A stretch of DNA of 64,000 bases from Verrucomicrobia bacterium ADurb.Bin006. Lineage in GTDB: Bacteria; Verrucomicrobiota; Verrucomicrobiia; Limisphaerales; J093. Positions 1-8,003 of the stretch are shown piece after piece (positions within the stretch are counted from its first letter, which is position 1; each line of letters opens with the position of its first letter). Location of the stretch: positions 1 to 64,000 of the forward strand of contig MWFF01000035.1 of assembly GCA_002071485.1 (NCBI GenBank), written 5' to 3'. A program made the position numbers and the translations under genes. The notes under the pieces were generated by a model that was not told the origin of the DNA, searched no databases, and saw only the letters and a list, made by a program, of their open reading frames with translations.

Positions 1-112
1 AACCACCGAGAAATCAGCCCAGGAAATCACGCAAAAATCCTTAACGGCGTTTGGGGGAGGCACCGTCAAATCCTTCGGAAAACCAAGGGGTCTGGACTGA
101 TTTTCACCCCGC

Positions 113-334
113 ATGGGATGCCAGTGGCTTCAGTTAGCCGGCCTAAAGTGCTACGGCCCCACGCGTACACAAGTCTATGAACCCATGCCCAAATGGCGTC
201 GTGGAGCCAAGCGCCCCTCCTGTTTGGACCTGGTCACACTGCTGCGCAAGCAACTGGCCGACCATCCGGTCACATTCCCGACGGCCAAAGCCCCCGCAAC
301 CTACCCCATGATGGTCGGCAGCGCCGCCGCCTGA
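113..334 (+). pseudogene. Possible transposase C-terminal remnant
   Basis: A 73-codon open frame whose middle part (KWRRGAKRPSCLDLVTLLRK) looks to me like the C-terminal stretch of transposases found in planctomycete and verrucomicrobial genomes; this is a recollection of pattern, not a search result. No catalytic part is present, and a stop codon lies in the same frame just upstream (about 98-100). The last 20 residues look unrelated, so the similarity ends near 270. It overlaps the first codons of the hsdR-like frame in another phase. If real it is an insertion scar at the edge of the restriction-gene block; it could also be chance coding. Confidence 0.3.
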
Positions 335-3153
335 GATTCTCCCCTCGCCGCCTCACACTGCCCCCCGCCAAAATCTGTCTTCAGAATGTCCAAACTCCAG
401 GCCCCTCTCCCAGTGGGAGAGGGGTGGCCGAAGGTCAGGGTAAAGGCGCGCAGCGTAGGGAGAGGGAGGATGAGGCACATTACCGAGGCGGGTTTCAGTT
501 CTCCGGGCTGGTCGAAAGGGCGCGTGAACTGCGGAAGACGAATACCCCTGCGGAGGAAGTTCTGTGGGAGTTGTTGCGCAGTCGGCGTTTTCTTGGACTG
601 AAGTTCCGTCGACAGCATCAGATTGGCGACTACCTCACTGATTTCTATTGCCAGGAGGCCAAGCTCGTAGTGGAAACCGACGGCGGTGTTCACGACCTCG
701 TGGCAGTGCAAAAGAAGGACCACAAGCGAGACGCCTACCTGAAGTCGCTTGGCTTGGAGGTGATCCGATTCAGGAACGCTCTCGTACTCGAACAACCGGA
801 AGAAGTTTTGAAGCGCCTCGCCGACGCTCTTCCCTCTCCCACTGGGAGAGGGGCCGGGGGTGAGGGCAAGACGCACAGCCGCCTGGGCGTCTTTTGGCAG
901 ACGCAGGGGGCGGGCAAGAGCTACTCGATGGTGTTCTTCGCGCAGAAGGTGCTGCGGAAGGTGCCCGGCAACTGGACGTTCGTGGGGGTGACCGACCGCA
1001 CCGAACTGGACGACCAGCTCTACAAGAACTTCGCCAGCGTCGGCGCGGTGACGGAGCCCGAGGAACGGGTCCGGGCGGACAGCGCGGAGCACTTGAAGCA
1101 GTTGTTGAGCGAGGATCACCGGTACGTGTTCACGCTGATCCAGAAGTTCAGAACCGAGCGGGGTCAGCGGTTTCCCAAGCTTTCGGGCCGGGCTGACATC
1201 ATCGTGATGACCGACGAGGCCCACCGCACGCAGTACGACATCTTCGCCATGAACATGCGGGGTGCGCTGCCGAAGGCGGCGTTCATCGGGTTCACCGGCA
1301 CGCCGCTGATCGTCGGCGAGGAGAAGACCAAGGAGGTTTTCGGCGATTACGTCAGCATCTACGACTTCAAGCAGTCGGTGGACGACGGCGCGACGGTGCC
1401 GCTGTTCTACGAGAACCGCATCCCGGAACTGCAACTCACCAACGAGCAGTTGAACGACGACATCTACCGGGTGATCGAGGAGTCCGAACTGGACGAGGAC
1501 CAGCAGCGCAAGCTGGAGCGGGTGCTGGGCCAGCAGTACCACCTGATTACCCGCGATGACCGGCTGGACCGCGTGGCAGCCGACATCGTCGAGCATTTCA
1601 CCGGACGCGGCTTCAAGGGGAAGGGGATGGTGGTCTGCATCGACAAGCTGACGGCGGTGCGGATGTACGACAAGGTGAAGGCGCAGTGGACCAAGCACGA
1701 GGCGAAACTGAACGAGTCGATGGCCAAGGCCACGCAGGAGGAACAGGACGCCATCCTCGACACGCTGAACTGGATGAAGACCACCGACATGGCGGTGGTG
1801 GTGTCACAGGCCCAGAATGAAGCCGCTGACTTCAAGGCGAAGGGCTTGGACATCACGCCGCACCGGCAGCGGATGGTGAAGGAGGACCTGGAGACGAAGT
1901 TCAAGGACCCGGACGATCCGTTCCGGCTGGTGTTCGTATGCGCCATGTGGATGACCGGGTTCGACGTGCCCAGTTGCTCGACCATCTACCTCGACAAGCC
2001 GCTGCGGAACCACACCCTGATGCAGACCATCGCCCGCGCCAACCGGGTGTTCGGCGAGAAGGTGAACGGCCTGATCGTGGATTACGTGGGCGTGTTCCAC
2101 CATTTGCAGAAGGCGCTGTCGATCTATGCCGGGGGCGGGGCAGGCGGCGGTATTGGCGGCAGGACGCCCGTCGAAGCGAAACAGCAACTCATCGCGATGC
2201 TGAAGAAGGCCATTGCCGAGGCGGTCGAGTTCTGTGCGGCGCGTGGCGTGAAGGTGGACGCGGTGTTGGTCACGAGCGGTCTGGAACGGGTGAAGGCGCT
2301 GAAGGACGTGCGGGATGCAATTCTGGTCAACGACGACTCGAAGCGGCAGTTCCTCGGTCTGGCGGCTCGGACGACAGTCGTCTATCGAGCGATACTGCCC
2401 GACACGAGCGCGAGCCAGTTCGCGCCGGCGTGCGCGTTGTTTGCCACCCTGGTCGACATGATCCGGGCGTTGCTCCCGCCCGTGGACGTTTCCGGGGTGA
2501 TGAACCAGATCGAGGGCGTGCTGGACAAGTCGATTGCGACGGCGGGGTACACGATCACGGAGAGGGCCAAGCCACTTGATTTGAGCAGGATCGACTTCGA
2601 CGCGTTGCGGAAGTTCTTCAAGAAGGCGCACAAGCGGGCGGAGATCGAGCGGTTGCGGGCAGCCATTGCGGTCAAGTTGCACGCGATGCTGGCCATAAAC
2701 CGGAGCCGGACCGACTTCTTGCAGAAATTCCAGGCGCTTATTGACGAATACAACGCGGGCTCCGCCAACGTGGAGGAGACGTACGAGCAATTGCTCCGGC
2801 TCGCCCAGAGCTTGAACGATGAGGAGCAACGGCATGTCCGCGAGCAGTTGAGCGATGAGGAACTGACTGTGTTCGACATTCTGACCAAGCCCGCCGTGGA
2901 CATCACGCCCAAGGAACGCAAGGCGGTGAAGAAGGTCGCCCAGGACATGCTGCACACCCTGAAGGCCAAGCGGTTGGTACTGGATTGGCGGAAGCGACAG
3001 CAATCACGGGCAGCGGTGCGGTTGTGCATCGAGGAGTCCCTGGACAAGCTGCCGCGGGCCTACACGCCAGACCTGTACCGAGCCAAGTGTGAGGCGGTGT
3101 ATCAGCACGTCTACGACACGTACGCGGGGGGAGATGCCGCTGGCGAGTGGTAG
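193..3153 (+). CDS. hsdR: Chimeric type I restriction HsdR motor with N-terminal DUF559 nuclease
   Basis: One uninterrupted 986-codon frame. Residues 1-70 match nothing I know. Residues about 105-210 are a DUF559 (PD-(D/E)XK, Vsr-like) nuclease: NTPAEEVLWELLRSRRF, DFYCQEAKLVVETDGGVH with E161/D163, and a late LGLEVIRF strand. From residue about 229 on it is the HsdR DEAD-like translocase: Walker A TQGAGKS at 237-243, DEAH at 341-344, FTGTP near 366, a motif VI-like QTIARANR, and a normal helical C terminus. The usual HsdR N-terminal nuclease domain (about 230-260 residues) is absent; the DUF559 domain stands in its place, bounded by two palindromes. The true start is uncertain: the ATG at 193 is simply the first; a GTG at 424 is possible. 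No hsdM or hsdS lies downstream; upstream is outside the window. It may be an inactive relic or a working nuclease-motor swap. Confidence 0.8.
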   Translation: MASWSQAPLLFGPGHTAAQATGRPSGHIPDGQSPRNLPHDGRQRRRLRFSPRRLTLPPAKICLQNVQTPGPSPSGRGVAEGQGKGAQRREREDEAHYRGGFQFSGLVERARELRKTNTPAEEVLWELLRSRRFLGLKFRRQHQIGDYLTDFYCQEAKLVVETDGGVHDLVAVQKKDHKRDAYLKSLGLEVIRFRNALVLEQPEEVLKRLADALPSPTGRGAGGEGKTHSRLGVFWQTQGAGKSYSMVFFAQKVLRKVPGNWTFVGVTDRTELDDQLYKNFASVGAVTEPEERVRADSAEHLKQLLSEDHRYVFTLIQKFRTERGQRFPKLSGRADIIVMTDEAHRTQYDIFAMNMRGALPKAAFIGFTGTPLIVGEEKTKEVFGDYVSIYDFKQSVDDGATVPLFYENRIPELQLTNEQLNDDIYRVIEESELDEDQQRKLERVLGQQYHLITRDDRLDRVAADIVEHFTGRGFKGKGMVVCIDKLTAVRMYDKVKAQWTKHEAKLNESMAKATQEEQDAILDTLNWMKTTDMAVVVSQAQNEAADFKAKGLDITPHRQRMVKEDLETKFKDPDDPFRLVFVCAMWMTGFDVPSCSTIYLDKPLRNHTLMQTIARANRVFGEKVNGLIVDYVGVFHHLQKALSIYAGGGAGGGIGGRTPVEAKQQLIAMLKKAIAEAVEFCAARGVKVDAVLVTSGLERVKALKDVRDAILVNDDSKRQFLGLAARTTVVYRAILPDTSASQFAPACALFATLVDMIRALLPPVDVSGVMNQIEGVLDKSIATAGYTITERAKPLDLSRIDFDALRKFFKKAHKRAEIERLRAAIAVKLHAMLAINRSRTDFLQKFQALIDEYNAGSANVEETYEQLLRLAQSLNDEEQRHVREQLSDEELTVFDILTKPAVDITPKERKAVKKVAQDMLHTLKAKRLVLDWRKRQQSRAAVRLCIEESLDKLPRAYTPDLYRAKCEAVYQHVYDTYAGGDAAGEW
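402..424. repeat. REP-like palindrome, left copy
   Basis: CCCCTCTCCC-AGT-GGGAGAGGGG: perfect 10-bp arms around a 3-nt loop. In the hsdR frame it encodes PSPSGRG. The same core recurs at 832-852. Confidence 0.85.
832..852. repeat. REP-like palindrome, right copy
   Basis: CCCTCTCCC-ACT-GGGAGAGGG: perfect 9-bp arms, one loop base different from the left copy. It encodes PSPTGRG in frame and ends only about 16 codons before the HsdR Walker A motif. Confidence 0.85.
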
Positions 3154-6488: not shown

Positions 6489-8003
6489 TCATGAATCGGC
6501 CTCGCGCCCAGACCGATCGACCAGCTCGCGCTCGATTTGTTCGAGCGATTTTCCCTTGGTCTCCGGCAGGCGGAGCCAAAGCACTGCGAATCCCGTGGCG
6601 CAGATCGCCGCGTAGATCCAAAACGTGTAGGACACGCCGAGCAGGGTCTTGAAGATCGGGAACGTGTAGGTGAGCAGGAAACAGGCGATCCAGAGGGCGC
6701 CAACGGCGATCGACATCGCGGTGCCGCGGACGCGGTTGGGGAAGATCTCGGAGATGAGCACCCAGACCACCGGCGCCAGCGACATCGAGTACGTGCCAAT
6801 GGCCGCCAGAACCAAGGCGAGGAAGAGGATGGGGGGGACCGGCGTGCCCGCTCCTTTGATGTGATAACAGGCCCCGATCGCCAGGTAGATGAGCGCCAAG
6901 CCCGCCGCCCCGAACAGCATCAGCGGCCTGCGCCCCAACCGGTCCACGGTGAACAGAGCCACGAAGACGAAGACCAGGTTGACCACGCCTGTGGCGACGA
7001 TGTTGGTGAGGGCGTCGTTGAGGTTGAAGCCGGCCTGGGCGAAGATCTCGCTGGCGTAATTGAAGATGACATTGATGCCGCACCATTGCTGGAACACCGC
7101 CAGGAAGATCCCCAGGCCCAGCACGACCAGCACCCGCCGATCGAGCAGTTCGCCCAAACGAACGCGCCTGTCTTCGCTCGTCAAAGTCGCTTGAATCTCA
7201 GCCATCGCCGCCGACGCGTAGGACGCGCCGCCAATGCGCGAGAGGACCCTCTCCGCCCGACGGCCCGTTCCGGCTTTGCAGAGCCAGCGCGGGCTTTCCG
7301 GCACGAACAGGGCGCTGACAAAGAACAGCAGCGACGGCACTGCGCAGGCTCCAAACATCCAGCGCCAGCCGCGCGTCACGTTCCACGACGCCGCGAATGC
7401 GTCCGCGGCCATCCCATCCGGGATCGGGCGGGCGATGCACCAGTTCACAAATTGCGCGGCCAGGATGCCGATGACGATCGTGAGCTGGTTGATGGCGACA
7501 AGCAGCCCGCGCTGTGTGGCGGGGGCGATCTCGGAGATGTACAACGGGGAGATGTTCGACGCCAGCCCGATGCTCACGCCACCCATGATCCGCCACGTGA
7601 CGAACACCGGGAAGCTCTGGGCAAAGGCGATTCCAAGCGACGACGCCACGAAGTTGAACGCCGCCAGGATAAGGATCGGTTTGCGTCCGAATCGGTCGCT
7701 CAAAGGTCCGGACACAATCGCGCCGACCAGGCACCCGAGGAGCGCGCAACTTTGCGCCCAGCCCACCGGAGAGATCGCGTTGGTTCTGAGCTTGGCCCAG
7801 AAACCGGACTCGGCGGCGACGGCTTGGGCCGTGTCCTTGAGTTGGAAGAAGGCCTCGTAGAACTTCGCTGCCCCGCCGATCACCACCCAATCGTAACCGA
7901 ACAGCAGGCCGCCCAGCGCAGCCACGAGACAGATGGTCCAGATGTAACGTGTGTTGAGACGCGCTTCGAGATTCGAACCGGAGGCGGTCGTGGCGGTGAT
8001 CAT
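6489..8003 (-). CDS. MFS sugar porter (SP family)
   Basis: 504 residues, twelve predicted membrane helices, normal for the sugar porter (XylE/GLUT-like) family. Family marks in order: GGLLFGYDWVVIGG in helix 1, SDRFGRKP between helices 2 and 3, PESPRWL after helix 6, VDRLGRRPLML in the second half, and VPETKGKS-like LPETKGKSLEQIE at the C terminus. It should import a monosaccharide or polyol by H+ symport across the inner membrane; the substrate cannot be read off. The ATG at 8003 (MITATTASGSNLEARLNTRYIW) was chosen because the upstream in-frame codons fall in a repeat. It appears to be a single-gene unit. Confidence 0.9.
   Translation of the reverse strand: MITATTASGSNLEARLNTRYIWTICLVAALGGLLFGYDWVVIGGAAKFYEAFFQLKDTAQAVAAESGFWAKLRTNAISPVGWAQSCALLGCLVGAIVSGPLSDRFGRKPILILAAFNFVASSLGIAFAQSFPVFVTWRIMGGVSIGLASNISPLYISEIAPATQRGLLVAINQLTIVIGILAAQFVNWCIARPIPDGMAADAFAASWNVTRGWRWMFGACAVPSLLFFVSALFVPESPRWLCKAGTGRRAERVLSRIGGASYASAAMAEIQATLTSEDRRVRLGELLDRRVLVVLGLGIFLAVFQQWCGINVIFNYASEIFAQAGFNLNDALTNIVATGVVNLVFVFVALFTVDRLGRRPLMLFGAAGLALIYLAIGACYHIKGAGTPVPPILFLALVLAAIGTYSMSLAPVVWVLISEIFPNRVRGTAMSIAVGALWIACFLLTYTFPIFKTLLGVSYTFWIYAAICATGFAVLWLRLPETKGKSLEQIERELVDRSGREADS

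Follow-up and report, generated by a model that had tools for sequence, protein, structure and literature searches.

Positions 402–866 of the window (the whole 64,000-nucleotide stretch analysed here, which starts at base 1 of contig C35 in a 4.8-Mb genome of 200 contigs) are interpreted as a single copy, ~430 bp long, of a REP/REPIN-like mobile element, with a Vsr/homing-type nuclease as its partner instead of a RAYT and with a translatable, gene-embedded form. This interpretation was assigned a probability of roughly 70%. The element is bounded by 10–11-bp inverted terminal tags (ACCCTCACCCC), each followed inwards by a CT-rich hairpin, and encloses a single DUF559 nuclease. Many organisms carry this nuclease as a small free-standing gene with hairpins on either side; in the clade of the window the element is stop-free, mostly without its own start and with hairpins that can be translated as PSPxGRG, and sits in frame in host-gene loops, nearly always of type I restriction–modification (R-M) genes. 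Here it inserted into the HsdR linker, with the intact N-terminal nuclease domain to one side and Walker A to the other, and a palindrome-seeking insertion sequence (IS) would later have hit the left hairpin and cut hsdR in two.

A single open frame at 193–3153 (986 aa) gave Pfam matches to DUF559 (3e-34, aa 108–212), SWI2_SNF2 (1e-67), T1R_D3-like and T1RH-like_C. The DUF559 (PF04480) domain, a Vsr-like PD-(D/E)XK nuclease domain on the + strand at 511–828, scored 117.5 bits against a profile cut-off of 20.6, retains the conserved D and E-x-D-G-x-x-H residues, and is preceded at 478–510 (+) by the motif HYRGGFQFSGL, typical of the gene-embedded DUF559 clade. The left palindrome (CCCCTCTCCCAGTGGGAGAGGGG, 401–425) contains CCCTCTCCCAGTGGGAGAGGG at 403–423, composed of CCCTCTCCC-AGT-GGGAGAGGG and read as PSPSGRG; the right palindrome, CCCTCTCCCACTGGGAGAGGG at 832–852, is composed of CCCTCTCCC-ACT-GGGAGAGGG and read as PSPTGRG. 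The window holds five copies of CCCTCTCCC against 0.82 expected, and no shuffle reached five. Between the left palindrome and the motif, the spacer at 426–477 (+) carries a half-palindrome, GGGAGAGGG, at 458–466, and comparison with locus L256 indicates that it is probably a palindrome insertion nested within the original left hairpin. The right terminal tag, GGGGTGAGGG at 857–866 (−), is the inverse of the left tag CCCTCACCCC, which is found at the end of contig C199. The motor and C-terminal part of hsdR follow at 867–3153 (+), with Walker A (QTQGAGKS) at ~898–921, and continue the hsdR begun at C199:5759. An earlier sequence-only reading had proposed that a palindrome-flanked DUF559 domain shares its frame with a type I restriction motor, and this observation is real. 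The left boundary given there was corrected, since that palindrome is the one duplicated by the IS; the element's own ends lie farther out, outside both palindromes, as 11-bp inverted tags (ACCCTCACCCC ... GGGGTGAGGGT).

Positions 1–400 (+) are the right end of a high-copy IS, outside the cassette, which splits hsdR at the first palindrome, and the frame before position 401 accordingly belongs to the IS rather than to hsdR. The IS has about 20 partial copies in the genome; the right ends examined share TGTCCAAACTCCA, and every one of them adjoins a hairpin. The copies examined (window 1–400, L017 at about 1290–1775, L018–L022 and L035) all abut hairpins, and the one in L017 is a complete short copy of about 485 bp with both ends, MITE-like, whose 24-bp target duplication is itself a hairpin/palindrome. 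The IS therefore targets palindromes, with an unusually long target duplication, and the left palindrome, present on both sides of the IS, represents its ~25-bp duplication. The palindrome 21-mer, searched with an NNN centre and up to two mismatches, has three copies in the genome: the two in the window and a third at the end of C199 (near 6626–6646), following immediately on the 5′ half of hsdR and preceding the left end of this IS. The 5′ half missing from the window thus ends contig C199 (..KNHQYLGVNNAINALLA-TLTPGPSPSGRG), with HSDR_N intact (E=3e-44), and the left end of the IS follows it. Joining C199 to C35 through the IS on the basis of the IS ends, the duplication and an intact orthologue, the IS is placed exactly at the first palindrome, and the reconstructed order before its arrival is HSDR_N, palindrome, DUF559, palindrome, motor, in which the N-terminal nuclease was never replaced. 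The proposal that DUF559 had taken the place of HsdR_N does not hold: HSDR_N is intact on C199, and in L256, an orthologue without the interruption, a single protein combines HSDR_N, DUF559 and motor. Domain replacement is ruled out by C199, L256 and L255.

For comparison, hsdR was searched in 196 genomes of the order with both halves joined. Locus L255 (genome G096) has an empty site: its HsdR is 88% identical over 424 aa and carries no insert (..NNAINAVLGLKHNRGRLGVFW; ..NNAINAVLGLKHNRGRLGVFWQTQGSGK). Locus L256 (G093) is an intact filled site with 90–92% identity (..NNAIRALLA-[cassette]-KTHTRLGVFW), encoded as one 1186-aa ORF with HSDR_N, DUF559, SWI2_SNF2, T1R_D3 and T1RH_C, and L257 (G059) is also filled. 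The more distant relatives L259 and L260 are empty, so the insertion is the derived state. The insert lies in the linker between HSDR_N and Walker A. Close relatives with the same arrangement but no palindromes would have counted against that reading; the relatives with this arrangement do have palindromes, and an insert-free close relative exists. As a type I HsdR, the host protein has all the expected domains (HSDR_N, helicase motor and C-terminal domain, together in L256 and here divided between C199 and C35 with the IS between); it differs by the extra in-frame nuclease between HSDR_N and motor and, in this genome, by the split. Just before Walker A in L262 (G181), the same linker holds another insert, repeat-like but different in sequence (RRSSRREEALTFPAHGREVSLLTSAATGKGERTPAPRSASANPNG), and insertions may therefore land in this loop generally.

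Comparison of in-frame loci gave the element ends as A/CCCTCACCCC-nn-hairpin ... hairpin-nn-GGGGTGAGGG/T (slashes mark the edges), with a length of about 410–450 bp in most. With one mismatch allowed, the tag was found on the left of 74/107 loci and on the right of 75/107, some matches being the hairpin itself. Several free-standing relatives have the hairpin outermost and the tag inside, an order often reversed with respect to the embedded form, and the two forms might move differently. In G037, two DUF559 loci (L065 and L070) share 500 bp at 79% identity, and this homology starts and stops exactly at the outer palindrome edges, which marks the mobile unit. Beyond A/element/T, no constant target duplication or target consensus was found at the element flanks, and neither transposition nor excision of the element was observed. 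The repeats share with REP/REPIN sequences tagged hairpins, high copy number, inverted pairs and a flanked cognate gene. An intein is not indicated, the insert holding only DUF559 and its weaker relative MTES_1575 and no Hint splicing domain. At L002/L075 (G000:C133, about 814–1110), a palindrome array beside a DUF559 gene repeats ~75 bp from the beginning of the gene downstream (ATGAGCAAGACCATCGAAGAAATC...), which suggests an unusual repair-like duplication at palindrome repeats.

Loci were also collected from a scan of about 85,000 species genomes, from which the best 80 were taken, a set biased to the clade of the window. From the clade with the motif YRGGFxFSGL, 51 loci were examined: hsdR was the host of 31 and hsdM of 18, while Pfam placed one in hsdS and sequence similarity placed the last in an hsdS-like gene; 50 of the 51 were embedded in frame. 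A stop within 90 nt upstream was present at none of the 51, and one within 150 nt downstream at 1/51 as against 34/42 free-standing genes. Dependence on host translation would explain a clade without stops; the in-frame state of embedded copies may need no other explanation than the selective removal of insertions that break the frame of useful genes. The named organisms of the in-frame clade span about 19 phyla and include Methanophagales archaea, nearly all in-frame examples coming from metagenome-assembled genomes. Other DUF559 clades occur in frame in HrpA (twice), methionyl-tRNA synthetase, Eco57I/MmeI-type enzymes and an N6/N4 methylase; the cassettes in methionyl-tRNA synthetase (L174) and HrpA helicase (L165, L172) indicate that they are tolerated in housekeeping genes. 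A phage or plasmid origin was considered and rejected, DUF559 relatives being present in only 4/50,697 phage records, 43/72,556 plasmid records and 27 viral contigs.

In comparisons of the window, G093 and G059, dN/dS was 0.05–0.09 for the cassette and 0.08–0.15 for the host gene; judged from these sequences, purifying selection on the cassette is at least as strong as on its host. An AlphaFold2 model built from 27 sequences (pLDDT 83) had among its best PDB matches 3hrl (NGO0050, annotated there as a putative endonuclease-like protein), the I-Bth0305I catalytic domain and Vsr. The conserved D, E-x-D-G-x-x-H and D residues (invariant D, E and H) are kept in embedded copies, and model and catalytic-type residues together point to a PD-(D/E)XK, Vsr-like fold. 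The presence of a homing endonuclease among the nearest folds is in keeping with a different mode of spread, in which the embedded nuclease cuts empty alleles at particular R-M sites and is copied in by homologous repair, giving site-specific occupancy. HsdR insertions occupy only four loops (reference aa 223–229, 257, 283–289 and 381–390), and site labels cluster on the DUF559 tree across phyla (16 changes against 30 when shuffled), although such clustering may have arisen through whole R-M genes being transferred horizontally together with the insert. Between the window and G093, cassettes at the same site had a dS of 2.2 against 0.43–0.70 for the host (Fisher p=2e-6, near saturation and on 73 sites), a difference that points to repeated filling of this one site; the corresponding G093–G059 contrast was not significant (p=0.08). 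The flanks, however, share no target motif beyond the outer A and T. Homing of this kind is considered a serious possibility, held as a minority view.

The association between DUF559 and palindromes was assessed at 95 loci with enough flank, counting palindromes within 400 bp. CT-rich palindromes of the CCCTCTCC type lay on both sides at 59/95 and on one side at 28/95, against both sides at 0/1043 random control positions in the same loci. Palindromes of any kind numbered 3.55/kb within 350 bp of DUF559 and 0.54/kb beyond 1 kb. Palindromes of the form CCCTCTCC...GGAGAGGG had a median of 64 per genome in the 14 genomes with a strong DUF559 match and of 1 in the remaining 44 (p=1e-6, a statistic that ignores shared ancestry), and a reversed control pattern gave almost none. 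The dispersed copies are paired, for example 87 nt apart in G029, like the pairs flanking that genome's own DUF559 gene. Palindromes scattered at random with no tie to DUF559 would have told against the original proposal; they are indeed dispersed as well, yet strongly tied to DUF559, with which their genomic copy number correlates. Another enzyme, such as a RAYT/Y1 transposase, could instead mobilise the palindromes, with DUF559 as a passenger gene. TnpA_REP is thought to move REPs in other bacteria (PMC8266576, PMC3733652), and some genomes are rich in palindromes without a strong DUF559 match (76 in G049, which has weak matches only, 30 in G012 and 25 in G057). This alternative is unlikely: in the same 58 genomes none of 30 Y1_Tnp genes lay between such palindromes, and G030, with 236 copies the most palindrome-rich genome of all, has no Y1_Tnp match whatever. 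A RAYT was rejected as carrier because no Y1_Tnp gene examined was flanked on both sides by these palindromes. In G049 many of the 76 palindromes are of one type (CCCTCTCCTCCGTTCCGAACGGAGGAGAGGG), and a DUF559 partner has possibly been lost or is very diverged.

A passive domain fusion would make DUF559 a normal accessory domain of type I enzymes, kept by selection because it adds a second cleavage activity, with REPs bordering it by chance. This reading would accommodate the strong purifying selection, the intact active-site residues and the preference for R-M hosts. It is nevertheless improbable, given the spread over four HsdR loops and several HsdM/HsdS places, the empty site in an 88% identical gene, the in-frame cassettes in HrpA, MetRS and Eco57I/MmeI-type enzymes, and the same flanks around free-standing DUF559 genes. 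An assembly artefact, with hsdR and an unrelated DUF559 locus wrongly linked through short repeats in a fragmented metagenome bin, might be suspected from a junction 400 bp from a contig end and from the tendency of palindromes to break assemblies. For the cassette within hsdR it is already refuted, since independent genomes (L256, L079, L114 and others) show the same arrangement without interruption in open frames of about 1200 aa, the contig break being accounted for by the IS and its target duplication.

The REP/REPIN-like element is preferred, and the suggestion that DUF559 ORFs and CTCTCCC/GGGAGAG repeats form a unit inserted without loss of frame is strongly supported by the flanks, the duplicate copies, the filled site and the open frames. 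The DUF559 nuclease would drive its own spread by cutting at or near the hairpin, the tag or the target, with repair copying the element; free hairpins would be non-autonomous copies, as REPINs are for RAYTs; and expression of the embedded form would be supplied by the host gene, with the fused nuclease presumably active within the HsdR protein. More tentatively, and at slightly less than even odds, DUF559 nucleases may act as the functional counterpart of RAYTs and mobilise an unnamed family of hairpin repeats with the tag CCCTCACCCC, very widespread among bacteria and archaea. One branch would then be a start- and stop-less translatable element, homing into type I restriction gene loops and carried along with these genes from phylum to phylum. 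If so, a nuclease family that is widespread but uncharacterised would gain a function, an explanation would be at hand for the many CT-rich palindromic repeats without a known enzyme, and a mobile element would be seen to persist through translation inside housekeeping or defence proteins.

Among known systems, REP/REPIN sequences with their RAYTs (PMC3733652, PMC8266576) are similar in their short tagged hairpins, often in inverted pairs, in an enzyme gene flanked by cognate hairpins, and in many dispersed gene-less copies, occasionally inside genes. They differ in that the enzyme here is a PD-(D/E)XK Vsr-like nuclease, not an HUH/Y1 transposase, that the tag is CCCTCACCCC, not GTAG/CGTC, and that a whole clade bears the enzyme in frame within host proteins; the hairpin-flanked gene is DUF559 and not Y1_Tnp (PF01797). 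The REP literature found concerns HUH enzymes. The hairpin-framed DUF559 unit looks like an undescribed mobile element living in proteins without breaking them, and there is a fair chance that it forms a class of its own. Rickettsia palindromic elements are palindromes inserted in frame into genes for unrelated proteins and translated as part of them; they are not known to carry a nuclease or to occur outside Rickettsiales. By that description they resemble the present insert in being palindromic and readable in frame (50/51 loci open through), and differ in that the insert here encodes a conserved nuclease domain and occurs in about 19 phyla. Vsr and the Vsr-like/EDxHD homing endonucleases (I-Bth0305I) share the modelled fold and possibly homing at fixed sites; in the present case the putative homing nuclease is hairpin-bounded and lies in a protein-coding frame with no intron or intein.

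A further known system is E. coli YcjD, of the same DUF559 family and assigned earlier to the PD-(D/E)XK superfamily (PMC1189080). No role or repeat link for DUF559/YcjD was found in the literature searched, and other papers could exist. In phylogroups A, B1 and C, ycjD lies in the fabI–sapF interval, where others carry eefRABCD (also PMC12817139); presence or absence of ycjD was therefore set aside as an empty-site test, the ycjD-less strain examined having the eef operon there and no clean empty site (PMC12817139). The repeat beside ycjD in E. coli K-12 MG1655 (L224:3703–3743) seems to have a few further copies in E. coli genomes (with the whole query, a median of 4 matching places per genome). 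Unlike the embedded copies, ycjD is a free-standing gene; it likewise adjoins a CCCTCACCC...CCCTCTCCCC repeat, with CCCTCACCCTAACCCTCTCCCC...GGGG on one side in K-12 and a GGGAGAGGG half on the other. Since E. coli K-12 thus holds a candidate, ycjD with its adjacent repeat, the idea is testable in a standard laboratory strain.
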